A DNA stretch of 64,000 nucleotides from contig NC_049981.1 in assembly GCF_000003815.2 (NCBI RefSeq), positions 13,599,035 through 13,663,034 on the forward strand, written 5' to 3'. Shown here piece after piece: positions 15,801-51,700 of the stretch (position 1 is the first letter of the stretch; each line of letters begins with the position of its first letter). Under the pieces are notes generated by a model. That model had not been told where the DNA came from and made no database searches. It saw nothing but the letters and a program-made list of their open reading frames with translations. This stretch comes from Branchiostoma floridae (Eukaryota; Chordata; Leptocardii; Amphioxiformes; Branchiostomatidae). Position numbers and translations under genes: made by a program.

Positions 15801-18800
15801 CATCACACCACAAGCAGTTTCCAAGCAGAGAAGAGCTACGGTTGACTCTGGACAGTGACTCAAGCGATGAGGACAAGCAAAAAGAAAAGAGAGAGCCTGT
15901 TTGGAACACAAATGGTTCTAATGATGTGATGAAATCAAGAAATGTTGATGCTAGAGACAACATGGTTGTTGAAAATGAGCTGCAAGAGTCTCAGGCTTTT
16001 GGTGGAGTTGAAGCATGGAACAAGCATCCATATAGAATAAAAGAAAGACATGAAGTGACAAAACCAGGTGAAAGTACACCACCACTACTACAGCAAAGCA
16101 AAGAACCTCAGGTTAGAAAAGGGAAACAGAAATCCCAGGACGCCAGCCAAGGGGCATCTTACATCACACAAGGTTACAAAAGACATTGGCAAAGGTCAAG
16201 TATTGCATGGGATTCATACAACCCTGGTGAACTAAAGACAAGGTCAAGTGTCGTCAAAAGTGGAGAGAAGAGAAAGGTAGCTGGGGCAAAGCAAAGGTCT
16301 GTAGGTTTTGACTTGAGTACTGAGTCAGCCAGCAGTGCTAGTGGTGACAGCAAACCATCTAGGAGACGACCTGCCAGTGCAGGTCAGAGGTCAACAGGAG
16401 CACAAGGGTCAAGTTCTGGTGAAAGGTCAGTAAACGTGTCTGGAGGTCAGAGGCCATGGTCAGCTTCAAGGTCATCCACAGTGGTCAGGGAAGAGGACTT
16501 CCTTTCCATTCACAGAGCAAGCTTCTCTCAGGGAAAAGGTAACTAGAATCAATCTATTTTTGGTAACACCTCAGGCCACAGTCATAGATTGATGTTGACA
16601 TTTTTGAATTGCAGGTTTACATTTGGATAAACTGTATGTACTTTTGTATTGAAATGCACTTTGAGTTTGTATTTTTTATCAAGATACATCATGTATACAT
16701 AAACACTTAATTGCAGTCACAAAATATTTCGAATAATCCGAACATAAAGTTTTTCAAATAATTCAATTATTATGATATAATGTAACATTGCTATATGGTG
16801 TCAATTCCAGTTGTAGACATGATAGAAGAAACAGTATTAAGTGCTTGGAGATTTGGAGACAGGGAAACAGCTGAGGCTACTGAAGTGTAGTGTAGGAGAA
16901 GAGGTACCTTTTGTGCAAATTCTGTGAACACTCAGGTTGAATCTGTTAGTTACATCAAGTTTCCGTCAATGCAAAATATAATTTGTTGCATTGCATTGTT
17001 TGTTACCTTTTACCAACCAACCAACCAACACAAGAGTTTGGTGGAAACAGTGTTTGTTTCATTCTCTGTTCAGTCTGTTGAAGTTCAACATTTTAATCTT
17101 TTTGTTGTATCTCACATCAATTGTTCAATGTAATCCAACATTATCATTTCAACTACAAATGTTTCTGAACGTAGTTGCAAAAAGTAACTTGATGTCTGTT
17201 CTTGTTTGATATCAATGTAGTTAATAACCTTGTTCTAATGGTCTTTGAAACTCATTGTTGACATATGACATAATAAGTAGGCATTATAATCATTGAGATA
17301 AAGACAACTGTTGCAATCTGTTATATTCTCACTCTTGGTTTCTGCCTTTATTCAGGTGCTGGCTCCAAACCAATGATGAACTACCATCTGGATAATCAGA
17401 CATATGCTAAGATTCTGACAATGGTGAGTGGGAAAACATGTACTGTAATTCCTGATTTTTTCACTGTAATGTTATGTTCACTGTTTTCACGGTGACGACT
17501 GTAACGTGAACTTATCATTACCGATAAAAAATAATTCACAGACATTTTTCATGTGCACTTGCCTCGACAGTGAACATATAGTTCCGAGAACAAGTTCAAT
17601 TTTCTCAGACCGTGAAAATTTGGTACCGTGAAGATAAAGTGATTTACAGTATTTCAAGTATGGGGACACATGTATATAGATAAGGTATTCATTTATCCAT
17701 GGAGTTTAAATCAAAGTAAGAAGCATATCTACATTATAATTAATACTTGCTGTATTCATAAAAGAAAGTAGTAGATATGTAGTCACTTACTAAGTTACTT
17801 TTTTTCTGGCATCTTTTGCTAGATAATGTGATAAGTATATTGTCAGTCAGAAAATCTCTCTCACCTGTAAGTTTGCATAATTATGACTGGATTTGAAGAT
17901 GATTGGAACAGACTTGCATCTTCCTTTCAGAAGACATACCGGTAAAGCTGGCGTCGTCGTGTATGAGGGAGCTTTAGGTGTTAGCTCAAATGTCAAACCT
18001 CTACACGTAAAAGAACCAAACACACTTGAAAAGAGTGAAAGAGTGTTTGGCCCAAAATGCAAGCCTTAGCAAAGTTGCATTACACTACCAATAGCTACTT
18101 GAAGCATCATTCTATCTTTGCTTCACCTCAGTTAAGAATGGTTGCCTTGTTCCCCTGCAGACTCCCCGTGGAGACAGCGATGAGTCGCCATGGTTGTTCC
18201 TCCCAGACGAGCTGCTGCTGTACATCCTGTCCTTCCTGTCCCAGCCTGACCTGGCCAGGGTCGCCTCCTCCTGTCAGCACTTCTACAGGGTAGCCATGGA
18301 CGAATCTCTGTGTAAGAATCTAAGTATTATAGTAACATTTGTACATCCTGTCCTTCCTGTCCCAGCCTGACCTGGCCAGGGTGGCCTCCTCATGTCAGCA
18401 CTTCTACAGGGTAGCCATGGACGAATCTCTGTGTAAGAATCTAAGTATTATAGTAACATTTGTACATCCTGTCCTTCCTGTCCCAGCCTGACCTGGCCAG
18501 GGTCGCCTCCTCCTGTCAGCACAGGGTAGCCATGGACGAATCTCTGTGTAAGAATCTAAGTATTATAGTAACATTTGTACATCCTGTCCTTCCTGTCCCA
18601 GCCTGACCTGGCCAGGGTCGCCTCCACATGTCAGCACTTCTACAGGGTAGCCATGGACGAATCTCTGTGTAAGATTATGGTAACATTTGTACATCCTGTC
18701 CTTCCTGTCCCAGCCTGACCTGGCCAGGGTGGCCTCCACATGTCAGCACTTCTACAGGGTAGCCATGGACGAATCTCTGTGTAAGAATCTAAGTATTATA

Positions 18801-21800
18801 GTAACATTTGTACATCCTGTCCTTCCTGTCCCAGCCTGACCTGGCCAGGGTGGCCTCCTCATGTCAGCACTTCTACAGGGTAGCCATGGACGAATCTCTG
18901 TGTGAGAATCTAAGTATTATAGTAACATTTGTACATCCTGTCCTTCCTGTCCCAGCCTGACCTGGCCAGGGTGGCCTCCACATGTCAGCACTTCTACAGG
19001 GTAGCCATGGACGAATCTCTGTGTGAGAATCTAAGTATTATAGTAACATTTATACATCCTGTCCTTCCTGTCCCAGCCTGACCTGGCCAGGGTCGCCTCC
19101 TCCTGTCAGCACAGGGTAGCCATGGACGAATCTCTGTGTAAGAACTCTTTGTGGCAAAGGGAAAAAATTTAGTACGAAATTTACACCTATTCATTTAAAA
19201 GAATCTTTGGGATTGGAGATGGAGACATATAGTACTGTATTTGAAAGATTTCTGACAATTGCACTAAGACATGAAGGATCTTTTTGTAAGAACACTTTTT
19301 TTTGGATGACATCTAGAAATTGGAGGCAAGAATGATTTGGAGCAATGCTTTAGGAAATGCTGTACATTTTACCATCTTTACTGAATTGCGTTTCCTCAGA
19401 AAACAGAATCTATATCAATTCATAACTATAGGCTCCATCCTAGAATGGATTAATGGGCTAGACAAAACATTGTTGGATTAGACAAAAAGTCATGAAATGA
19501 AATCGATGATGTATTTTTGTCAGCTTAGAATGACAGATTTAACCATGAAGATTAACAACAAGCTCCCAATGAGTGGGATGGTAAAAAATTCAAACCCTAT
19601 TAAGAGGTTAACGTTGATCTTCGAAGTTTTATGATATTGCATGGTTGTGGTGACACCCATATCTATACTAATGTTTCTTGCCTTGTAGGGAGAAACATCA
19701 CCCTGACCAAGAGGAGTGACTTGAGTGATGAGATGCTGTGTTATATTGGGCAGCACAGTCCACAAATCCTGAGGCTTCTGCAGTGTACAGGTAGCACAGT
19801 CACAGAGCGGGGGCTCAGGGACCTCTTCAAAGGGTGTAAGGACTCACTAAAGGTAATCGAACAGATTTTTCAACCATCACAGTAATGAACACTATGGACA
19901 ACAATGTATCAATGAGAACATTTATCTGTCAATCTAAACATATGTGCTGAAATCAAAGACTAGAATAGTATTTTATGCTGTTCAGGTTTTTCTTTCTATC
20001 ATGAAAACTAAAAATGCTGGTAGAGAATAGGAAAATCAAGAAAACTGATACCTTATAATAAAAAGACAGAACATTCAGCATTTTGGGAAATATGAATATC
20101 AATTTGATAAAGATAAAATGTATGAGGTGTTTCGAAAATTGGAAGGACAAAATTACTAATTTTTATTGTGTATTTCTAGGAGCTGAATTTCAGTGGCTGT
20201 AATGGAGGTGCTCTAACTGGAGACCTGGTGTTACTCCATGCCTCGTCACGATGTCATAACATCACGTCTCTCGACGCCAGCTGGAGTAATGCTACTAACA
20301 ATGGAGCTATGGCTGTAGCAGACATCAGCAAAAGGTAGGACTTTTCTCTTTCAGGCCACATCATTTGACTTGTTTGTTCTCAAGTCTTTATAAAAAATTG
20401 TACATGTGTATCTTAACTGTTAGATAAACATGAAAACAGTTTCAGTCAGTTGCTAAAAGTCTTTGCCTTGCTACACACAGTTTGTTTTAGCTTACAGTTT
20501 TCCTCCCAGCCCTCTGTGTTCATGTGCTCAAATAAAAATTGTTGTGGACTAAAACAGAGAACAGAAGCCTTTCAAAGACTGCTATTTTTGTTTGACTGCT
20601 TATTTGAAGACAATAATGTACTGGGAACTAGACAGCTGTTTTGTGCATGAATTCTACATTCCAATAACTTAAAGGGGAGAACTGATGATGATGATCTATT
20701 GTTTTCTAATCACTGATAGCAGTTAAGTACAACAGTTACTCCACTTTTGTTGTATGTTTCAGACTGGAGGTCCTGTGTGTGAATGGTTGTCAGAGCATCA
20801 CAGATGAGGCCCTGAACTATGTAGTGAACAGACATGGCAGTACTCTCCAGGTGCTGGAGGTCTTCGGATGCTTCAACATCAAGCAGCAATGCCTGCTGGG
20901 TATGGCTCAGAACTGCCCCAACCTCAGGGTCCTCAACATGGGGCAGTGTTACAAGGTCAGTTGATGAACAGTGCTTTCAAACGGCCACATTTTCAAAATA
21001 CCATAAATGCATTCAAGTTTGTGGGGATTTACTTTTGCGCTAGTGGGAAAATGGCGTGTTTGCGGTGGTTTTAAGTTCGTGGTAGTGCCATAGACAGTGG
21101 TCACATACTATAATGGAAAAATATTCGCTGTGGTTTTAAGTTTGTGGTGAAGTGTCCACCCCGAAAACTGCGAAATTAAACTACCGCAAACATATCTGCA
21201 TTTACAGTATAATTGCAATTTGAAACCACCATCCATTGACTTGATAGCCCTAGATACCCAGTTTGTAAAAACATATAGGATATAGGTTACCAGTCAGGTG
21301 AACTAGCGTTACATATATATCAGATGCATTTAGATGTGTTGCAAAAAGATTCCTGTATCATTATTTGAAGGTCCCTTAGTTCTGATGGAAATGTCTGCAG
21401 TGATGCAGTTTTTACAAATCTGTATCTTTCATATGAAGAAAGGTGTTTGTGTTCCGGTGTGCAGCAAATAGGTTCCCTTACGTTGTTGGAGGACATTTTT
21501 ATGTTGATGAAAATGTTGTACATCTTGTATGTCCTCTTGTGGCGAAAGCAGTTTTTGTGGGTCTGATTCTATTTACACAAATTAGTTAAAAGAAACAAAT
21601 ATTTCACAAACTTCTGTATCATTCTGACAGGTGACTGACAAACTGATCAGACAGATGGCCAGTAAGCTGAAAAGTCTGGAGGTTTGGGACCTGAGAGGAT
21701 GCAAACAGGTCAGTTCTCATGTCTATTTGCATTTATGCATTTGCTTATTTTTAACCAGAATTGCGCTTTCAGTGTCTTCCATGTCATTCTGATTAGTTTA

Positions 21801-23650
21801 TTGAGATTTCCTTTTTGTTGGGAAATGCGTCAGTATCATTTATGCTGTTTAAGTGTAAAAGAGTACTTAAGTTTCTTTTTTGTTGGACCCCTTACATTTA
21901 AGGTTCAAGATGAGTCGGTTCACCAGATAGTCCGTTGCTGCAGTGGACTACAGACGGTCACCCTGGCTAACTGCCCTCTGGTGACAGATGTGGCACTGGT
22001 GGAGATTGCTACGTATCTTCCCAACGTACGGTAGGTAAAGTAGCCTCAAAAAGTAGTGAAACAGACATAGACATGCAGCAATTGCTATCTTCCTACGGTT
22101 TGGATTTTTCACACCAACATGAGATTAATGGCAGACATCAGTGCCAGTAGCCTTAAAAAAAACCTACTTACTTCTGTCAGTTTTCCTCAGAGGGCCAAGT
22201 TATTAAAAAAATTGATAACTATCAAGACAAAGGTTCAAGCTTTGAGCAGTATCATTTTTCGTTTTCAAATTGTTTAATTTTGCTTTTATGAATTAAGCAT
22301 CAACAGTTAAAAAATGTTTGTTCATTCTAGGTGTGTTGATGTGAGTGGATGCAGAAATGTGACAGACTCCGGAGTTCGGGCATTTGCCAATAACAGCAAA
22401 CAGTTGACATATATAGACCTGAGCTCAACAGCCATCACAACCAAAAGGTATAGTGTTGTTGTGTCTTATGTTTGTCCATGCATATCCATGGTGCTAAACA
22501 CTATATGTACTCCCATGTGTTGAACACCATCCACACAGGTGAACATGCCTGTCCTTGGTGCTGAACACTATCTACACACACACACACACACACACACATG
22601 TAAACATGCCTGTCCTTGGTGCTGAACACTATCTCACATCTAAACATGCCTGTCCTTGGTGCTGAACACTATCTACATACACACATGTAAACATACCTGT
22701 CCTTGGTGCTGAACACTATCTACACACACACACATGTAAACATGCCTGCCCTTGGTGCTGAACACAATCCACACACACATGTAAACATGCCTCCTGTCCT
22801 TGGTGCTGAACACAATCCAGACACAGGTAAACATACCTGTCCCTGGTGCTACACACTACTCACACAAAAGCATTTTTAATATAAACATGATGATAGAAAT
22901 TTAAGTACCTCTCTGAATATTATCTGTTTTGACATATCTTGGATATAATTAAACACACATCTGCAAGTACAACTTCCAAAAGATACCATACTTAGAAATT
23001 GTATGTCAATTTGATGTATTTTTTCTGATGTAAAGATTTATTGTTCTGCAGTGTGACCCTACTGGGCAGCTACTGTAGCAGAACCCTGGAGACTGTGAAA
23101 CTCAGCTTCTGTGACATCACAGAGTCTGCTGTAGTTAAACTGGTAAAGAACTGTCCAAGGTAAGATTATAAATTTGTGTGTGATATACGTACATGTACGT
23201 ATTTCTACAACACAATTTCAGAGGAAAAAGTGATTATATACCTCTCATTGACTCACATTGAAGAAGATGATTATCATGTTGTAATGAATATATTATAGTC
23301 TAGGACATTGCTGCCATGGTTGTTTTAATGTGCAGAAAAAATTATATGTGGAGTAGTCAAGAATAGGGGATGTGCAATATATATCTATAGTTATGAAGAT
23401 TTTTTACCATGGTTTCTGACTCAAAAGAATTGGACTCCACAACATCAGTCAAACGTGCTGTGGATTAAGCCATATTCCATTGTGTTGGAGATGATTGATT
23501 CTTACCAAATTTAACTTTACAAACTTTGTTATTCCCTCTTTCTTCTGTAGACTTCACACCCTCCATGTGATTGGGTGTAAAAGGATCAGAAATGACGGTG
23601 CAATCAAGGTGGCAAACAGCAAGGTGGCCGTGGAGCTGGGGAGAAAGTAA
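12803..23650 (+). CDS. Zinc-ribbon/F-box/leucine-rich-repeat protein
   Basis: Coding exons: 12803-16538, 17356-17423, 18161-18311, 19689-19852, 20180-20334, 20763-20955, 21631-21708, 21903-22030, 22331-22447, 23052-23159, 23551-23650. All phases agree; total 4,998 nt, 1,665 residues. The first exon alone gives about 1,245 residues, charged and low in hydrophobics, probably disordered. Residues 734-751 hold a zinc ribbon (CPKC, then CTEC). The F-box begins near residue 1281 (LPDELLLYILSFL) and is joined at DESL/WRN. The rest is LRRs of the cysteine-containing FBXL type (for example SGCRNVTDSGVRAFANNS). Known family role: F-box proteins bind SKP1 and use the LRRs to present substrates to an SCF ubiquitin ligase; here that is inferred. 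The long N-terminus with a zinc ribbon is unusual for FBXL proteins, and I cannot name a vertebrate orthologue with confidence. A candidate 5' non-coding exon ends at 12266. Confidence 0.9.
17441..17651. mobile_element. MITE-like element in F-box gene intron
   Basis: The 211-bp segment starts TACTGTAATTCC and ends GATTTACAGTA, so the ends are imperfect inverted repeats (TACTGTAA-type). Its interior carries further inverted pieces around CCGTGAA/TTCACGG. It begins 18 bases after the exon ending at 17423, leaving that donor intact. The family is not assigned. Confidence 0.6.
18221..19150. repeat. Eight-copy tandem array of half the F-box exon plus donor and intron
   Basis: Copies start at 18221, 18342, 18463, 18578, 18690, 18811, 18932 and 19053. 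The full period is 121 bp. Copy 1 is the real 3' half of the F-box exon, coding from YILSFLSQPDL to DESL, followed by the donor and about 30 bp of intron. Copies 3 and 8 share the same 6-bp loss (TTCTAC), and copy 4 lacks 9 bp in the intronic part. All copies keep a usable donor (CTGT/GTAAG, or GTGAG in copies 6 and 7), but none contains the true acceptor and first half of the exon. The 121-bp period is not a multiple of 3, so read-through from one copy into the next hits a stop. Confidence 0.95.
20999..21209. mobile_element. MITE, same family as the outer element at 43347-44498
   Basis: The ends are TACCATAAATGCA and TGCATTTACAGTA. The interior contains GTGGTTTTAAGTTCGTGGTAG and GCCATAGAC, which recur in reverse complement in the 43.4 kb element. 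It lies in an F-box gene intron and has no coding capacity. Confidence 0.75.
22540..22860. repeat. Intronic minisatellite with embedded CA runs
   Basis: The core CTTGGTGCTGAACAC recurs about six times with spacers of roughly 40-60 bp that contain variable (CA)n and ACATGTAAACATGCCT. It lies between the F-box gene exons ending at 22447 and starting at 23052. Confidence 0.85.
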
Positions 23651-28000: not shown

Positions 28001-31000
28001 CGGAAGGTCACGTCAGGAGGCCAAAAGAAAACAAATTTCCCCTCAGAAAAGTGCCAAAATTAATCATTTTAAAGTTGTTTATGTCAAAAATTTTACTTGA
28101 ATCTTGTTACCAAGCATCTAACGCCTATCTATACCAAATTTCAGGTCATTTAATTGTAATACCAGGGTACAGGAGCCAAAAGTGTCCTTTTTTGGTAAAA
28201 AATTGGCCAAAAATCGCAAAAATAAGCATTTTGTTGCACTGTACACCAAAAGTGTTATTGAATTTATATGAAGGGTTTATCAAGGCACATCTGTGTCAAA
28301 TTTCAGCTCATTCGGTTGCAATACCAAGGTACAGGAGCCAAAAGTGTCCTTTTTGGGTCAAAAATTGGTAAAAAAATCGCAAAAATAAGCATTTTGTTGT
28401 ACTGTACACCAAAAGTGTTATTGAATTTATATGGGGGCATTATCAAGGCACATCTCTGTCAAATTTCAGCTCATTTGGTTGTAATACCAGGGTACAGGGG
28501 CCAAAATATACAGTTTTGGTCTAAAATTGACCAAAAAATCTCAATAAAATCATTTTAGAGGCAGATATGAAAAAACTGAGAAAAAAGCATTAAGGTATTG
28601 GCCCATTCTACCCCTGTGCCAAATTTCAGGTCATTCGGTCCAGGAACGGCGGAGATGAATCACTTTGAAGATTTGACAGGAGAAGAAGAAGAAAGAAGAA
28701 ACATTACGAATACAATATATTTCACCATACTATGTATGGCTGAAATATAATGATGCAGAGTTCTACAATTTAAGTTGCTGAAAACAAAACTAAGAAGATA
28801 TGTGAGATATCACATACCTGCAGGTGGCATAATACAGGTGCCCATCCTTGTACAGCTGGTTAGCCAGTTCCAGCTGGTGGTTATTCATTAGCGTCTCGTT
28901 AATCACCACAACGAGGGGTTTCCCCGCTCCCAGGGTCTCCAGGCAGCTCCCAGCACCTAAGGACACATGAGTGATACAGTTACTCCCTCTGGCAGAATCA
29001 TCAGGAATTTCACTGCACAATTTAGATATTGTGGTGGGTAATGCTAGCCTGGTTTCTAGAACCACCCTACTACACAATAACCTCTTTGACTCTATTGAAG
29101 AGTGGCTGGTGTGGGACATGTGGCGTCCCTGACTGTTGAGGTTTACCTGTAGCACAGTGGGTTTGGCAACCAGCCTAGCGTTTAAGTTGTCACTAAATTT
29201 TTACACACTCTGATTGTAATGGAGTGCAGCCGTATTACGCATGAGATGTCGTGGCTTCACTGTACAAGTGTACCATGCTGATACTTCAGTATACTAGTAC
29301 ATGATTATGCATACAACTACTACTAGTACTACAAATGAATTATATTTAGACACTTCTAGGACTATAACCCTACCAGACTGTTACAGTCTGACTTATAATA
29401 TCTACTTTTACACTTCGATGGTTAACTGTACCAAGGACCGTACCAGAAGCTCTGACTTTGTGAAATGTCTGTCTTGTTAGCGTAGCCGCGGCGACTGTTG
29501 GTCTATTTATCGCTATGCTCCCGACCAACGGAGCATAGCGATAAATAGACCAACAGAATCGCTGGGTTTCTTTATGCAANNNNNNNNNNNNNNNNNNNNN
29601 NNNNNNNNNNNNNNNNNNNNNNNNNNNNNNNNNNNNNNNNNNNNNNNNNNNNNNNNNNNNNNNNNNNNNNNNNNNNNNNNNNNNNNNNNNNNNNNNNNNN
29701 NNNNNNNNNNNNNNNNNNNNNNNNNNNNNNNNNNNNNNNNNNNNNNNNNNNNNNNNNNNNNNNNNNNNNNNNNNNNNNNNNNNNNNNNNNNNNNNNNNNN
29801 NNNNNNNNNNNNNNNNNNNNNNNNNNNNNNNNNNNNNNNNNNNNNNNNNNNNNNNNNNNNNNNNNNNNNNNNNNNNNNNNNNNNNNNNNNNNNNNNNNNN
29901 NNNNNNNNNNNNNNNNNNNNNNNNNNNNNNNNNNNNNNNNNNNNNNNNNNNNNNNNNNNNNNNNNNNNNNNNNNNNNNNNNNNNNNNNNNNNNNNNNNNN
30001 NNNNNNNNNNNNNNNNNNNNNNNNNNNNNNNNNNNNNNNNNNNNNNNNNNNNNNNNNNNNNNNNNNNNNNNNNNNNNNNNNNNNNNNNNNNNNNNNNNNN
30101 NNNNNNNNNNNNNNNNNNNNNNNNNNNNNNNNNNNNNNNNNNNNNNNNNNNNNNNNNNNNNNNNNNNNNNNNNNNNNNNNNNNNNNNNNNNNNNNNNNNN
30201 NNNNNNNNNNNNNNNNNNNNNNNNNNNNNNNNNNNNNNNNNNNCTAAATGGGATCAACATCACTTTCAATTTCTTTATCACTTTCTTTCTTGCAGTCAGG
30301 AATGTATGCTCCCGTGTTACTTTCTCCCCAGCTCCACGGCCACCTTGCTGTTTGCCACCTTGATTGCACCGTCATTTCTGATCCTTTTACACCCAATCAC
30401 ATGGAGGGTGTGAAGTCTACAGAAGAAAGAGGGAATAACAAAGTTTGTAAAGTTAAATTTGGTAAGAATCAATCATCTCCAACACAATGGAATATGGCTT
30501 AATCCACAGCACGTTTGACTGATGTTGTGGAGTCCAATTCTTTTGAGTCAGAAACCATGGTAAAAAATCTTCATAACTATAGATATATATTGCACATCCC
30601 CTATTCTTGACTACTCCACATATAATTTTTTCTGCACATTAAAACAACCATGGCAGCAATGTCCTAGACTATAATATATTCATTACAACATGATAATCAT
30701 CTTCTTCAATGTGAGTCAATGAGAGGTATATAATCACTTTTTCCTCTGAAATTGTGTTGTAGAAATAGCGTACAGGTAAAGTAGATCCAACAGTCGCCGC
30801 GGCTATTGTTAGCATTAGTTAATAGTGACTTAACCAGTTAACAGACCTGCATGACTGATGACCAGACCAGCACCCTGTATATCCTCAGCAATGGTGTCCT
30901 TGAACCTGAAATATTCCAGTCTGAACCCAGGTCTCACAAACGCTTCTGGTTCGTACTGGCCTCTTCCTATCTGTAGCAACAGTCTGGTGTACCCTAAGTC

Positions 31001-31277
31001 TTCAAGTAGCTGCAAAAATAAAATAAAAATGTTCTCTTACAAAAATTAAAGATTTTACTGTAGAATTTCTGGACGTTTGACAAAAAAAAAAAAAAAAAAA
31101 CAACAGTGACTTAGCTTTGTTGAGCATTCCTTGATGAAGTGTCAAAGATCTTACCTTGCAGAAACTGCTGCTAGAAACCAGCTCTATAAGAGGATCAAAG
31201 CTAGTTGTTCCGACTGTCACAAAAACACATTTTTCTCTGTCCGACATTTTCGATTGTTTACCTGCAGGCTGTTCCAT
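25083..31277 (-). CDS. ALG13: ALG13, UDP-GlcNAc transferase catalytic subunit
   Basis: Minus-strand exons: 31277-31155, 31009-30847, 28956-28818, 25194-25083, phases consistent, stop TAA at 25085-25083. The first ATG gives 178 residues; a second in-frame ATG at 31247 gives 168 and sits closer to the usual family start, just before EKCVFVTVGTTSFDPLI. Family hallmarks are VTVGTTSFD, QIGRG, LVISHAGAGSCLETL, NETLMNNHQLELA and the C-terminal PPGQPEKFAAFLDKVMG. ALG13 pairs with membrane-bound ALG14 on the cytosolic face of the ER and adds the second GlcNAc to dolichol-PP-GlcNAc in N-glycan precursor synthesis. The length fits the short, single-domain form, with no sign of OTU or Tudor extensions. 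The gene is head-to-head with NTAQ1. Its second intron holds an assembly gap and an inserted element; its third is full of repeats. Confidence 0.95.
25195..26823. other. ALG13 third intron, distal part: repeat-like but unassigned
   Basis: No exon signal was found. The sequence GTGGTCACTATAGAG occurs near 26283, with a related form GTGGCCACTATAGAC just before it, resembling transposon end motifs. Two related GTGGTCGTTTT-type motifs occur near 42000. I cannot delimit an element here. Confidence 0.35.
26824..28170. repeat. Diverged direct duplication, about 745-bp unit, in ALG13 intron
   Basis: Unit 1 (from about 26824) and unit 2 (from about 27570) share the same order of blocks: AGACCGTCAACAA, a CGCAGCGAA block, CTGAAGAGAAGT with GTGACTGCT, a GGGCTTCGC block, TATGAATATTAATTAGCCTT, and AAAAATTTTACTTG. 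Substitutions and indels are frequent, so the duplication is old. No function is evident. Confidence 0.8.
28141..28640. repeat. About 162-bp tandem repeat, three units plus partial
   Basis: The marker TCAGCTCATT(T/C)GGTTG and its variants start at 28141, 28303, 28466 and, in shortened form, 28626. Each unit also carries CAGGAGCCAAAAGTGTCC and GCATTTTGTTG. The array continues from the 745-bp duplication and ends at a GAAGAAGAAG-rich tract near 28680. It resembles a dispersed invertebrate repeat, but I cannot name it. Confidence 0.85.
29495..29556. repeat. Perfect 27-bp-arm palindrome with 8-nt loop
   Basis: Arms 29495-29521 and 29530-29556 are exact reverse complements around CGACCAAC. The arms start and end with CTGTTGG/CCAACAG, overlapping the left terminal repeat of the element described at 29474-30813. 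It may be a subterminal hairpin of that element, and it sits next to the assembly gap. Confidence 0.9.
29580..30243. other. Assembly gap, 664 N
   Basis: The gap has a non-round length, so it was probably sized by read pairs. It lies inside the terminal-inverted-repeat element in ALG13 intron 2. The first base after it is already inside the copied F-box segment, so the other border of that copy is hidden. Confidence 0.98.
30244..30775 (-). pseudogene. Inverted copy of F-box gene last exon and preceding intron
   Basis: Reading the minus strand here reproduces plus-strand 23192-23723 of the F-box gene. I saw no substitutions in the parts compared by eye, and homology fades near 23192. The copied last exon lies at 30416-30317 with its acceptor and TAA stop. 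The copied exon is in the sense orientation of ALG13, whose intron contains it. Splicing of ALG13 exon 2 into it would add five residues after the junction codon and then stop (TGA). It is a fragment without promoter or start. Confidence 0.9.
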
Positions 31278-31487
31278 GCAAAAGATAATGTGCCTAAAAT
31301 AATCTAATTTTAAAAATGCGTATTTAGTTTATCATAATCCCAGGAGACATAACTTTTCAACGTTCTTAGATATTTTTCTAGTTTCAACAATCGCCTCTTA
31401 TTGTCCTTGATCGGTTCAAATATTATTTTCGATTCAGGCAACAAATCTGCTTTAGTAGCCACCATTAAGGTCAAAGGTTAAAACAAA
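31278..31487. promoter_or_regulatory. Shared bidirectional promoter, ALG13/NTAQ1
   Basis: The outermost ALG13 start codon (31277, minus strand) and the NTAQ1 start codon (31488, plus strand) are 210 bp apart and point away from each other. I see no clear TATA box. Both genes would be transcribed from this interval, so shared control is likely (inference from arrangement). Confidence 0.6.
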
Positions 31488-34400
31488 ATGGCAGCCGCTC
31501 CTGAAAGAATTTTGCCGACGAGTGAAGAATGTGTCTATACGGCTTGTTATTGGTAAGAAATAAGGATGGATTTTGCTTTTTATGATAGAATATAGTCTAA
31601 GGAAAGGTTCTACCAGTTTTTGTGACTGCAACCTTTTTCTTAGCGACGCCTGTCTAATAATTATATTCACCGATTGCCCTCTTTCCTTTGTTCGCGATAT
31701 ATCTTCATGATGTCATGCATTTGTTTTTCAATATATTTTATTCCAAATCATCGTAAATCATTATGTTACATCATACCATCGTAAATAGTGAACTTAAGTT
31801 GAAAGCTTGATCATACCAAGGAGGTTGAAGGCTTGATCATACCGAGGAGTTTTTTCAACCTCCTTGATCATACAAGGGTCGTATTTATGTTCGGTATACT
31901 AGTAACTCGTATATTTAATAGTAAATAGTATGGCCAGAGGCTCCATACATTGTAGTTCTAATTGGTTACTGACAGAAGAAGAAGACATGAAAAGAACACA
32001 CCAACAAAAATAATATGTATTCTACTATCGGGGAGAACATTAGTAGGGTGTCTTGTAAGTTTGCTTTGGTGAAAATAGATAACAAAATTGTTGGATAAAT
32101 CTAATATATGGGGTTGTGAATCCACAATTTCTTTTGTTGCATAATAATGGTTGATAATGGCTGCATGATAATGGTTACTGTAAATATTGTATTGTTTGCA
32201 ATTTTGTCAGTTCCAGCTGTACTACTTCTTTGGTTCTTAAGCTACCAACTTCACGTTTATGAAGATTCTGTACTCTATGATAGGTTGTGTGTTTCTATGT
32301 TTGTATGCTACAGTATTGCGTTGATTGTGAACTTGAAATGCTGCAAAAACAAATGACTATACATCAATGTATTTGTCTCCACAGTGAGGAGAATATCTAC
32401 AAGTTATGTGAGTGGATCCGAGACAACACTTCTCACCTTCAGGAGTTCTATGTGGTCTTCATCTCCAATGCTGCCCAACAGGTAGGGCTGTGTACCTAAA
32501 TACCCGTACCTGTACCGTACCTAAAAATTGTTTAGGTACAGGTCCAGACCTAAACATCTGTGTACCTGTACCTGTACCTAAACAAACTAAATCACTATTA
32601 AACACTACTTTTTAAGACTGCTAGACAATTAAATCCTGAATCAACAATGACAATGGTGATAATCTTGCAGTTGAAACTTAAGAAAACTTCCAAAAAATTG
32701 TTTTGAGATTCAAATATGTAATTGCCCATACAAAGATGACAATTTGTCACTAGAAAAGACAGCTAGCTACATGTTTAACTTACATTTACTTGGTTAAACT
32801 TTTTTAGGTACAGGTGCAGGTCCGGACCTGTACCTAGACCCGTGTACCGGTACCTGTACCTGTACCTGTACCTGTACCTGAAAATTTGTTTAGGTCCACA
32901 GCCCTACCAACAGGTAACAAATTTCACAACAGTCTCCCAACCAACACTGGCACTGACTGATGCAATCATATCTTTCATGACCATCGAGACAATTTGCTTT
33001 CTTTCAGAACCTAGCATAAACATTCTGAGCTTGACCGGAGATACATGTATTGCTAATCGTAAAGGCAGCCAAACTTTCATGTATGATAGAAATTATTCTG
33101 TTAAGTTCAGGAGGACAGTGAATTGTTTGAAGATAGTTGCAGCTGATATTACTATTTGTACAGTTTTTGTGTGGAAGAGACAACTGGTAGAGATGATTTA
33201 CATGTATATCACCTATTTTGTCTCCCTTCATTCTTTGTAATGGGAAAAATTCAAGTAAAGAAATAGCATTACTCTTTTTTTAATGATTTATATACGCATT
33301 ACATGTACACTTACTATTGCTTTTATTGTACTACTTTTTTGTAGGTTCCTTTGTGGATGCAGAGAGCAGGTAGACAATATGGCCCTGGAAAGCCTGTGGT
33401 GTGGGTAAGTTTGGTCATGAAAATATATGATGCTGAATATAGATGTCAAATACATGCAGGCCCTATGGGCTGGCAGTACAAGAAAACCAGTACAAAAAGA
33501 AATGGCTAGCAAAATGAGCCCCCAAAAAGATGAAAAAGGCCCAGAGAGCCTGCTATTGAGGCCAAAAGAAATGGTGCAATTTTGTAATAGTCCATTTCTG
33601 TACAGGAGCAAATCCCAGCAATTCTGGAGTGATCCTGGCTCCATTTTGTTCAGCTGGTTCTAAAACTGTTGATATTTGCATTTGTTATGAAAGGAGATAT
33701 CTACTGGTTTCAAGTGACATGTATCAAAGTTGAAAACTTCTGACTGTTTAAACGGAATATCTTTAAGTTTACAGTTATTAGGGTCTCTATTTCTCCACCA
33801 GATTGCAGTCTCTCTCCTGACATGTACTCTAGTAGTTTACGTCAGCCGAATTTATTGGGTGTTTTTATAGTATAGGCATGGTCTTGAAGGAAAAGGTTGA
33901 CAAAGAAACATCCTTGTTTTAGTATCCAAAGAAAGACTCTCTATATCAGAAGCTGATGATGATGAAACAGTTTAACCACAGTCTGTATTATTCTGTGGAC
34001 CTCCATGTAGGACTACCATGTTGTCCTCCTACACCAGAGAGAGGGGCAGCAGACTGATGTGTATGATCTAGACTCCATGTTGCCTTTCCCTTGCAACTTC
34101 TCCCGGTACTGCACTGCTACCTTCCATAGTGATGAAGAGCTCAGGCCTCAGTTCCACAGGTCAGTGGTCTGATAGGGAATTGATAAGGTCCTGAAATTCC
34201 AAATAATTACATATAAATGATATCAGGCGATTCTCCATCAAGCTTCTAGGGTGCAGACTGGATGTTGATAGGCCACTTTATAGCTGAAAAGAATGATTTG
34301 ATCAGGCTAATGTAATAATTAGGAGTGAAATGTGTGGTCATCGGTATACCTACCACTTCATGCATTTTGATATAAAATATTTTCAATGTAAGAAAAATTG

Positions 34401-35620
34401 CTACAACACCTTTTGGTATTAAATAGAAGAGATGAAGTTATAAGACATTATAGTCTGTCTATGGCCTTTGTCAGTGCTGAATGCCTTCCATGTAATGTAT
34501 CTGTGGGCATTGGTCCATGTACATTATCATTTTGGCCTAAAAAGTTTTGATTCATGTACTTTAATTTTGAATTCATGGAAAAAAAAGCTAACCGCATGAT
34601 CTTCTTGAGTTGACATCGTTTTGAAGTTGACTATTGCTTCTCCTTCAGGAAGTTCCGTGTGGTTCCTGCCTCAGACTACCTGCTGATCTTTGCCTCGGAC
34701 AGGTCTCACATGAGGGTTGCTGGGGGTTGGATGTCTCCTCCACCCGAGTACCCCTGTATCCAGACTGATCGTAAGCACCTTTCATTTGCTTCTTACATGC
34801 ATGTCTGTGCAAAATGTATCTACAACATACTAGGATCTAAGGTGCAAAATGTACCAGGGCAGAATGTACTGGAAAGGTATATAAGTGCAAACTTCACTGT
34901 ACTTGTGTCATTTAGCCTCTAGCCACTGAAGAAGCTGTACATAGCGAAACTAGTTTGGCCGACAGGCTGAATAAAAGTTCAAAACTTGAACTATGCTGCT
35001 CCAGATGTCTTTCTGAGGGATGACTGCAGTGTGCAAGATGTCGCGGTAGCTTGAGGGATGAATCTACCCTACTATATACAAAATGTATCTACAACATAAC
35101 TTTCACCTTGTATTCAACGTTTTGACTTCATACCATAGCCAAGATGGTTTCCGTTTTGGTAGCATGTATGGTTTTGTGGTCGAAAAGCAACTAAAGAAAT
35201 TACGGATTGATGCATACGATATTTTGGGAGGCTTTACATTTAGGTCTTGATGTCTTCAGGCAACAATAAGATTTTGGGCCCCCAGCGGCTTTCTTAAGTA
35301 CTGCAGGGTATGGTTTTCATGTTGTGGCCGTAATTTCTAGGTGGTAACTAGTAGGTATTACTTCAATGTGCATTGATGCATGAAGACTTTTGCAGATTGG
35401 TTCTTTGGTCTTTGAAATACAATGGAATCGATTCTATAATGTGGTTTTTATATTTAAGACAACACTTTTCGTTTTTTCAGAGAGTGCTATGAATCTGCCG
35501 ATGTTCATCGACATGAGTCCCAACACTTTTGTTGGAGAAATTCTCAACCTCAAAACTTTCAGACTTCGCTTTCGGACACCAACGGTGGAGGAACAAGCCC
35601 TGGCCCCAGATCCTAGTTAA
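31488..35620 (+). CDS. NTAQ1: NTAQ1, protein N-terminal glutamine amidohydrolase
   Basis: Exons 31488-31552, 32385-32481, 33345-33404, 34011-34159, 34649-34770 and 35481-35620 join in frame to 210 residues, close to the usual length of about 205. The enzyme deamidates N-terminal glutamine to glutamate, feeding substrates into arginylation and the N-degron pathway; it acts in cytosol and nucleus. Motifs seen: CYCEENIYKLCEWI (catalytic Cys22), VWDYHVVLLH (His77), VYDLD (Asp93), LPFPC, FASDRSHM and PPPEYPCIQTD. The Cys/His/Asp triad is intact. Odd: a hAT-type element sits exactly across the exon 2 donor, so the GT used there is formed by the insertion. A short retroposon-like insertion is in intron 5. 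AATAAA at 36386 probably ends the mRNA. Confidence 0.95.
31817..31866. repeat. Small inverted repeat in NTAQ1 intron 1
   Basis: CAAGGAGGTTGAA (31817-31829) faces TTCAACCTCCTTG (31854-31866). The motif CTTGATCATAC recurs three times around it. No function is evident. Confidence 0.7.
32475..32914. mobile_element. hAT-type MITE inserted across NTAQ1 exon 2 splice donor
   Basis: The 424-bp element (32483-32906) starts TAGGGCTGTG and ends CACAGCCCTA, a typical hAT terminal repeat. It is flanked by a perfect 8-bp duplication CCAACAGG at 32475-32482 and 32907-32914. The interior is built of ACCTGTACCTGTACC arrays in both orientations, so the whole element can fold back. It has no coding capacity. 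The target duplication spans the junction CCAACAG/G: the left copy plus TA of the element makes the donor GTAGGG, and the right copy retains the ancestral donor GTAACA. Confidence 0.93.
34810..35098. mobile_element. Short retroposon-like insertion in NTAQ1 intron 5
   Basis: The 19-bp direct repeat AAAATGTATCTACAACATA occurs at 34811-34829 and 35080-35098, and a matching preceding C makes it 20 bp. It brackets about 250 bp not related to its surroundings. Long direct repeats fit target-primed retroposition. The insert contains CTGAAGAAGCTGTAC and GCTGAATAAAAGTTC but no poly(A) tail. The family is not assigned. Confidence 0.7.
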
Positions 35621-48700: not shown

Positions 48701-51700
48701 CCCACAACAGCCAACATGCTGATGACAGTCACAGCCAGAATCCCGTATCCCCACACTGTAGGGAAATATGTAGATGAAAAACTGAGTCTACCGAAAATGT
48801 ACCAAAGTAAAAGTTACCTTCATTACGATCACCATGCTTCAAAGAAATGAGTACATATAGTGTTATTTATGCATACACGGAGAAAATATAGACTCAATGA
48901 GCACGATTTAGTTGTGCCATGCACTGCAGCAAAAATCTCTACCAAGATAGCACAGTCACCAACTCGGATGATATCCCTCATGTAGGCTGATAGGTTGACT
49001 ATAAAAAGTATAAGAATTCTGAGTGTTCACAAAGTCAAACAGAGAGTCTGTTACCTGCTGCTGGTACGCCTTGTGCTTTCCCTTTGTGCTCGTCATGATC
49101 GTCATGATCGTGACCGTCCTCTTCATGAATGATACAAGCCTGTTCATCTATCTGTGCGATGAGCAGTGGGCAGATGTTCACGAAGTCTGGCATTGTCATG
49201 CGAGACATGTCTGGCGGGATGTTGTATTCTACCAGAATCTCCCTCGCAGAGAGGCACTGCAGGAATGAGGGAAGTGAAAAATAACTTTTACATTATTAAG
49301 ATATATTAACTGTATTGTTGTTCTCATGAAGATGACAGTTCTCAATTTCCAGAATACACAGAATATATCTATTACAAATAATCAAGAGCTTTATTATAAG
49401 CACTTGTACCATTGAGCAAAACAACTGCAGAGTGTGAGAGAAGGTTGGCTTACATGGGCACCTGGAGCATGTTCAGGATGATCATGTCCACGGCCGTGAT
49501 TTTCATTTCCATCGTCGTGATCTTCATTTCCATGGTTGTGATCTTTAGGTCCATGGTCCTGTTCTTCAGGTCCATGGTCTTCGTGGTCGTGATCTTCATG
49601 TGCATGGTCTTCTTGATCGTGATCTTCTTGTCCAATATCTTCATGGTCGTGATCTTCATGTCCATGGTCTTCATGGTCGTGATCTTCATGTGCATGGTCT
49701 TCATGGGCGCGATCTTCTGGTCCATGGTCTTCATGGGTGCGATCTTCAGGTCCATGGTCTTCATGTCCATGGTCTTCATGTGCATGGTCTTCATGGACGT
49801 GTTCTTCATGGTCGTGATCTTCATGTCCATGGTCTTCTTGATCGTGATCTTCATGTCCATGGTCTTCATGGTCGTGATCTTCATGTCCATGGTCTTCCTG
49901 GGCGCGATCTTCAGGTCCATGGTCTTCATGTCCATGGTCTTCATGTGCGTGGTCTTCATGGTCGTGATCTTCATGTGCGTGGTCTTCATGTTCGTGATCT
50001 TCATGTGCATGGTCTTCTTGATCGTGATCTTCATGTCCATGGTCTTCTTGATCGTGATCTTCATGTCCATGGTCTTCATTGACGTGGTCTTCATGTTCGC
50101 GATCTTCATGTGCATGGTCTTCTTGATCGTAATCTTCATGTCCATGGTCTTCATGGACGTGATCTTCATGTGCGTGGTCTTCATGTTCGCGATCTTCATG
50201 TCCATGGTCTTCATGGTCGTGATCTTCATGTCCATGGTCTTCATGGTCGTGATCTTCATGTGCGTGGTCTTCATGTTCGCGATCTTCATGTACATGGTCT
50301 TCATGGTCGTGATCTTCATGTCCATGGTCTTCATGGACGTGATCTTCATGTGCGTGGTCTTCATGTTCGCGATCTTCATGTGCATGGTCTTCATGGTCGT
50401 GATCTTCATGTCCATGGTCTTCATGGGCGCGATCTTCATGGGCATGGTCTTCGTGATCGTGATCTTCATGTCCATGGTCTTCATGGTCGTGATCTTCATG
50501 TCCATGGTCTTCATGGGCGCGATCTTCATGGGCATGGTCTTCGTGATCGTGATCTTCATGTCCATGGTCTTCATGGTCGTGATCTTCATGTCCATGGTCT
50601 TCATGGTCGTGATCTTCATGTCCATGGTCTTCATGGTCGTGATCTTCATGTGCATGGTCTTCATGGTCATGATCTTCATGTCCATGGTCTTCATGGGCGC
50701 GATCTTCATGTGCATGGTCTTCGTGATCGTGATCTTCATGTCCATGGTCTTCATGGTCGTGATCTTCATGTCCATGGTCTTCATGGTCGTGATCTTCATG
50801 TCCATGGTCTTCATGGGCGCGATCTGCATGTGCATGGTCTTCGTGATCGTGATCTTCATGTCCATGGCTGTGACCTTCATGGTTATGGCCATGGTCATGA
50901 TCCTGTTCCCCATGGCCATGTTCATCCCCCTCTTCATGTTCATCATGACCATCATGGCGTTTTGGGTCTTCTTTGCTACCTGTTGTACTGTTTGCATCCC
51001 TGGGCACCCTTCTGGGCGACTCTGTTGCAACCTGCATGAGGTCTAAGCCTCTGGTAGGTCGCACTGCCGTGGACTTACGCCCTCTCCGTCTCTTCCCTTT
51101 CTTTCCCTGTCTCCTACTGCTGCCGTGCCTTCCCGGCCTGGGAGTTGGGGCTTCCTGCACAGCAGCAGGTTCTGGTGCTACAGTTGAGGTCGGACTCTGT
51201 GGAACCTGCTTTATTGGATCTGTCGACTCCTCATGGCGATAACCATTGGCCTCCCCTGACATTGTACTCTCATGGGAGTGATCCGAATGGTCAGGATCCT
51301 GATGACCAGCACCTGTATCCTCATTCTGATCTTCCCCATGATAACCAGAATGATGGTCATTACAAAGTACATCATTGGTGTGTGGATAATGCACGTGATT
51401 AGTGCCACCGATTGTGTCCACAATCAATAAAGAAGTGCCATTACTGTCTTCTTCGTGATCACCGATCAGTTCCTCGTGATACGCAATCCTCACCTCACCA
51501 AGTCCCAGTCTCCCTAGGAGCTTCTTGAAACCTCTAAAGCTAATATTTCCATCCTTGCCATACTTCCTAAATAGCTTCTGTAAGCCTTCGTTTTCTTTGA
51601 AGGACTTTTCATATCTAGCTGTAACAGAGACTGGGTTGAAGCCTTCATTATGATCTACTGCCCCCGCCTGATGAAACACTCCAAACGTCAGCAAGCAAAG

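Follow-up and report, generated by a model that had tools for sequence, protein, structure and literature searches.

The window analysed here is a stretch of 64,000 nucleotides from the amphioxus Branchiostoma floridae, and positions are counted from its first base unless another locus is named. Its forward strand carries a homologue of NTAQ1, organized in six exons that have GT-AG borders and give an open frame of 210 amino acids when joined. Exon 1 (from the ATG, 31488..31552, with the donor TTG/GTAAGAAA, where the slash marks the splice junction), exon 4 (34011..34159), exon 5 (34649..34770) and the coding part of exon 6 through the stop codon (35481..35620) were placed by in-frame joining. 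Exon 2 (32385..32481), which ends at a codon boundary, ...CAA CAG, and exon 3 (33345..33404), which starts with GTT CCT behind the acceptor TTTTTTGTAG and also joins in frame, were placed by matches to Pfam and to human NTAQ1. Joined to each other, exons 2 and 3 match the Pfam family Nt_Gln_amidase (N-terminal glutamine amidase) at 2.2e-12 and the chains of human NTAQ1 structures at about 1e-08. A minus-strand open reading frame containing MSDREKCVFVTVGTTSFDPLIELVSSSSFCK (31002-31328), which we take to resemble ALG13, is arranged head to head with NTAQ1; the two possibly share a promoter. A run of N, marking either a gap in the assembly or withheld sequence, occupies 29580-30243, its end lying 2.2 kb upstream of the insertion described below. 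Elsewhere the window holds a tandem array of about 44 copies of a 30-bp unit (49552-50867), another array whose periods are 121 and 469 bp (18219-19144), and four neighbouring matches to the mir-2060 precursor on the minus strand (22492-22875), within a tandem-repeat region.

At the 3' edge of exon 2 the gene carries a hAT-type MITE of 424 bp, TAGGGCTGTG...CACAGCCCTA (32483..32906, plus strand), flanked by a perfect 8-bp direct duplication, CCAACAGG, whose copies lie 432 bp apart at 32475..32482 and 32907..32914, both read on the plus strand. The upstream copy takes in seven bases at the end of exon 2 plus one base of intron 2, its last G being intron position +1. The left terminal inverted repeat (32483..32500, plus strand) and the right one (32889..32906, minus strand) were found by a repeat search as 20-nt arms, 32481-32500 and 32889-32908, that pair at 95% with 2 nt of flank within each arm. 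ACCTGT-type repeats lie inside the element. The right repeat holds CACAG/CCCTA, a candidate acceptor that ends at 32901, and the downstream copy of the duplication is predicted to be a possible acceptor as well, CAACAG/G. The repeat search gives the direct repeat as CCAACAGGTA, with a length of 10 nt rather than 8 and a spacing of 432, since TA opens the element and also comes next in the old intron. There are two donor sequences on the plus strand, CAG/GTAGGG at 32479..32487, which from its T onward is element, and the ancestral CAG/GTAACA at 32911..32919. The first-pass annotation had named the gene as NTAQ1, had placed an 8-bp duplication across its exon 2/intron 2 junction and a 424-bp hAT-type MITE between the copies, and had read the upstream donor as CAACAG/GTAGGG, its G contributed by the duplication and its T by the element's first base, and the old donor CAACAG/GTAACA as surviving 432 bp downstream. 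The protein matches bear out the gene, the inverted-repeat ends and the duplications of the family bear out the element and its length, and the duplication and both donors read as had been claimed. From the duplication we infer an ancestral empty site in NTAQ1; when the joined flanks were used to query the window's own assembly, only the occupied locus was returned, in two pieces with query ranges overlapping by 10 bases.

We searched that assembly (513 Mb in 431 contigs) for other members of the family. A left-end pattern allowing at most one mismatch gave 210 matches, and the reversed control gave 0. The element search scored 40 places, the window's own among them, from 474 candidates. At the ends TAGGG...CCCTA an 8-bp duplication is perfect in 29 of the 39 other copies and matches at 7/8 in 2 more; for the remaining 8 the scripted search found no duplication, though L034 among them shows 8/8. 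Because the 29 perfect duplications lie exactly there, the boundaries TAGGG...CCCTA are settled, and the alternative considered for the NTAQ1 copy, GGTAGGG...CCCTACC with a 4-bp AACA duplication, is ruled out. Elements of the hAT type have short terminal inverted repeats with a YARNG-like start, and the consensus of their target duplications is nTnnnnAn. Among the 29 duplications 57% have T at position 2, and pooling of the two strands gives A at position 7 in 57% as well; the NTAQ1 duplication CCAACAGG itself has C and G there. The family is thus short and multi-copy, with 8-bp duplications of nTnnnnAn profile and YARNG-like ends, as hAT MITEs are.

Sixty-one distinct copies have a duplication of at least 7/8 and a right end within two mismatches of CACAGCCCTA. 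Their lengths range from 295 to 583 bp, 55 of them falling within 385-427 bp. CACAG/CCCTA is present at the right end in 60 of the 61, a count biased upward by the choice of copies, which required a right end near CACAGCCCTA. The position table of the duplications indicates a target preference, sites ending in CAGG being favoured 2.3-fold. Likeness between the NTAQ1 copy and its nearest relatives reaches 95.9%, and the insertion could therefore be a recent one. A related subfamily, TAGGGCTGGGTACC, has its duplication TTCCCAGG at a pyrimidine-rich, acceptor-like TTCTTCCCAG/G (L147/L148, G000:C6:18938090-18938730), and a further copy (L002, G000:C13:15909785) lies just past a match to ECSIT (Pfam ECSIT_N, 2.5e-30), apparently slightly into an intron as judged from the open reading frame.

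It is quite likely that the hAT insertion took over the NTAQ1 donor, with the upstream donor in use and the old site now intronic. A non-autonomous hAT element would have inserted into CCAACAGG at the exon 2 edge; the 8-base duplication would have placed the exon end and the intron's first G ahead of the element, and the element's T would complete the GT. Productive mRNA would most likely arise from the upstream CAG/GTAGGG, with exon 2 keeping its ...QQ end and exon 3 joined unchanged. Intron 2 would be lengthened, now opening with the element, followed by the second copy of the duplication and the old donor. The rest of NTAQ1 is intact over its six exons and, elsewhere in the genome, a second copy stands in the same register (below), both of which support this reading. 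We infer both that the upstream donor is used and that the insertion is nearly neutral. Use of the old donor had been said to disrupt the frame, and here the claim needs amending: retention of the 432 nt would add V G L C T and then a stop, truncating the protein after five codons, with the frame unshifted; a frameshift is rejected because 432 is a multiple of three (3 x 144).

Duplex energies, calculated with what we take to be the U1 5' end sequence, are -11.2 kcal/mol for the new donor and -8.0 kcal/mol for the ancestral one, and the other four NTAQ1 donors range from -4.6 to -10.3 kcal/mol. The new donor is therefore predicted to be a better U1 partner than the ancestral donor, not just a restored GT. 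Folding of the transcript puts this donor in the stem formed by both terminal repeats (whole-fold z -7.2), where positions -1 to +6 are wholly paired (unpaired probability 0.0), and in shorter folds of the nascent transcript it is likewise paired, save at +4. Averaged over nine positions, the unpaired probability is 0.22 at the new donor, 0.17 at the old donor where it now stands and 0.44 at the donor of the joined empty site; the remaining four NTAQ1 donors span 0.19 to 0.45. On these predictions the insertion would reduce donor accessibility yet leave it within the range of NTAQ1's own donors. The donor's predicted burial in the stem is the chief objection that the sequence raises to easy splicing, but naked-RNA folding is a weak guide and predicts donor use poorly.

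The same folding could be read as a hypomorphic allele, in which the terminal-repeat stem hides the new donor, intron 2 is spliced poorly and NTAQ1 is partly damaged, possibly as a polymorphism. We think this unlikely: the pairing of -1 to +6 and the low z would fit it, but every coding exon is open, and the nine-position mean of 0.22 is no worse than the 0.19 of the exon 5 donor. A young insertion, as the 95.9% likeness of its nearest relatives allows, would also suit a polymorphic allele, as would the heterozygosity of amphioxus, given in PMC12500494 as 3.2 to 4.2%. The NTAQ1 gene on the sequenced haplotype may in that sense be damaged.

The arrangement is seen a second time, in a homologue of NCF4 (p40phox), where a copy of the family lies on a coding donor (L060, G000:C13:18573074, locus positions about 1426-1910 and 2850). 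Its perfect duplication, CATGCAGG, falls on CATGCAG/G, where an exon of the PX domain ends. With borders set by eye, the left-flank exon ends in ...GKIYFGRSAIREVAERRKPELNKYMQ and the next exon runs from ELLSLDPKISRDPDVRLFFGQ; joined, the exons match the PX domain at 1.7e-16 and human NCF4 (p40phox) at 1.5e-18, in an alignment that spans the junction. Pairing with U1 is -7.1 for the old donor, CAG/GTGTGG, and -11.2 for the new one, again CAG/GTAGGG. The two insertions are in different genes and in one register, the duplication ending in the intron's first G. That the NTAQ1 arrangement is an assembly artefact or a chance direct repeat is accordingly extremely improbable: the locus is known from one assembly, and the run of N that ends at 30243 is 2.2 kb away, but the element boundaries match those of 29 of the 39 other copies and the second gene shows the same arrangement.

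Further cases were sought among the ends of the family. Fourteen ends are preceded by AGG, one of them that of NTAQ1 and one that of the NCF4-like gene; duplications in the fourteen are 8/8 in 9 and 6/8 in 2, with none found in 3. Inspection by eye placed the remaining 12 ends in introns or non-coding sequence, for three of them from just 40 bases of flank. The genome has 98 ends with a G directly before them, and 84 distinct rows were examined, the difference being ends that were unfetched, lay too near a locus end or had repeated flanks; 58 of the rows have a duplication of at least 6/8, and by eye no third coding donor was recognised in the 84. One candidate (L099), in which a duplication seemed to span a donor, was rejected with a match of only 6/8. 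A pattern search for AGG on both sides, restricted to element lengths of about 357 to 417 and thus with NTAQ1 outside its range, gave 10 places. By chance, 0.06 to 0.65 donor-register insertions would be expected, with a probability of at least two of 0.002 to 0.14; the copy number was taken as 210 to 474 and the number of donors was assumed to be 150,000 to 300,000, and the larger values include the 2.3-fold preference for CAGG. We speak of a suggested enrichment in the donor register because the number of donors is an assumption and the test was made after the hits had been seen.

Open reading frames across the joined flanks of the 61 copies were also listed (119), and ten were scanned by Pfam. 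One copy (L138, G000:C19:10368605-10368994, minus strand) lies within a coding exon of an ankyrin/SOCS-box gene, in a frame of 128 amino acids that has an ankyrin repeat before the insertion and a SOCS box (1.6e-08) after it. Left unspliced, the insertion reads GAG TAG, an immediate stop. Splicing from a donor made of the duplication's G and the element's TAGGG to the element's CACAG would add four codons and leave the frame intact. Use of the duplication's own AG would shift the frame; of the two acceptors tried, CACAG alone keeps it. Another copy (L129) has long open frames, with no Pfam match at 0.01.

The arithmetic of this route is general. Wherever the duplication ends in G, the donor G/TAGGG and the CACAG acceptor leave 5 + 8 - 1 = 12 extra nt, and the frame is kept because 12 is a multiple of three. 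In NTAQ1 it would yield a possible in-frame microexon, CCCTACCAACAG, predicted as CCC TAC CAA CAG (PYQQ) at 32902..32913 on the plus strand, from the element's acceptor to the ancestral donor; in the NCF4-like gene it would yield CCC TAC ATG CAG (PYMQ). Inclusion of this microexon is possible as a minor route. So is a two-step path in which the element is cut out as a separate intron (GTAGGG...CAACAG) and the old donor is then spliced, a path that would give the same mRNA as the upstream donor alone.

On a rival reading the element would behave like an introner, either being cut out as its own intron, after which the regenerated CAG/GTAACA is spliced to exon 3 in the manner of a zero-length exon (recursive splicing), or using the CACAG acceptor and keeping the 12-nt microexon. 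CAACAG does stand immediately before GTAACA, CACAG/CCCTA closes nearly all copies (with the upward bias given above), the microexon is in frame and free of stops in NTAQ1 and has its PYMQ counterpart in the NCF4-like gene, and the ankyrin/SOCS-box frame is one that such splicing would rescue. The candidate acceptors of NTAQ1, however, have pyrimidine tracts of 0.53 (before CACAG) and 0.59 (before CAACAG) against 0.65 to 0.76 before the gene's five acceptors, and the ankyrin/SOCS-box case has a donor weak on U1 (-4.7) and an alternative acceptor in its duplication that shifts the frame. Because the tracts are poorer than the gene's own, we treat the 12-nt route as no more than a possibility. 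Introner-like removal at NTAQ1 seems decidedly unlikely.

One expects insertions at an exon edge to be purged. Here one family stands twice on a donor in the single register where its own first base completes the GT, each time with better predicted U1 pairing than the old donor. This offers a simple rule, open to test, on which exon-edge insertions are able to persist, and it ties the target preference of a hAT family to the CAG/G of the exon end. Why some transposons get spliced, and whether target preference matters, were named as not understood in a 2012 review (PMC3443670). Were the 12-nt route true, an introner-like element would be present in a chordate. More broadly, the hAT family might be a nascent introner in a chordate, with CAGG-ended targets favoured, G-ended duplications removable with a 12-nt in-frame gain and CAG/G insertions removable exactly, and with the NTAQ1, NCF4-like and ankyrin/SOCS-box copies as three survivors; we offer this tentatively and regard it as doubtful. 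Judged by sequence, the element and its duplication can together supply a donor (G + TAGGG) and an acceptor (CAACAG or CACAG). Many copies standing as introns at new positions, as introners do, were not found: two copies are on old donors and one is in a coding exon, of 61 distinct copies (about 210 in total), with coding context judged by eye and by Pfam on 10 of the 119 open reading frames plus NTAQ1 and NCF4, so that cases may be missed.

Maize Ds1 has an 8-bp duplication and a TAGGG-type end. The splicing of Ds/Ds1, which are hAT elements, from maize pre-mRNA was described by Dennis 1988, Wessler 1991 and Giroux 1994, which are cited in PMC3260210 and PMC3443670. The amphioxus copies are alike insofar as a short hAT element would act as an intron, or part of one, within a gene, their splicing being predicted. 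They differ in their animal host and in their position at a donor that was already there, which the element takes over instead of making a new intron.

Introners are described by Gozashti 2022 (PMC9860276) as non-autonomous DNA elements, many with terminal inverted repeats and duplications, whose splice sites are part element and part duplication, and one family, in Aureococcus, is reported there to add 12 bp to the transcript. The mixed origin of the splice sites is shared with the amphioxus family, and the 12-bp addition is the one predicted here for G-ended duplications. Introners, however, make new introns in numbers, whereas here two copies are on old donors and one is a candidate within an exon. 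Among animals and land plants the same paper gives introners in two groups only, both animals, and its main text has 0 occurrences of 'Branchiostoma' or 'chordate'. A model of intron gain by transposon insertion into AGGT, in which the flanking AG/G(T) duplicates could give donor and acceptor (Biol Direct 2012, PMC3443670), resembles the present case in having duplicated AG/G(T) on both sides of the element; it differs in that the number of introns is unchanged here, because the site was already an exon-intron junction. In the [D1,2] stwintrons of PMC12403724 an internal intron likewise lies at the donor of an external one, but it splits that donor between bases 1 and 2, whereas the possible inner intron here would stand before base 1 and is a transposon. 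A [D1,2] stwintron at NTAQ1 was considered and ruled out, there being no GT after the first intron base. Among open-licence papers, judged on titles and abstract openings, there was no match to the same arrangement. The splicing of hAT elements and the existence of introners are already established; what differs in amphioxus is that an existing donor has been taken over twice by one family and that the host is a chordate.
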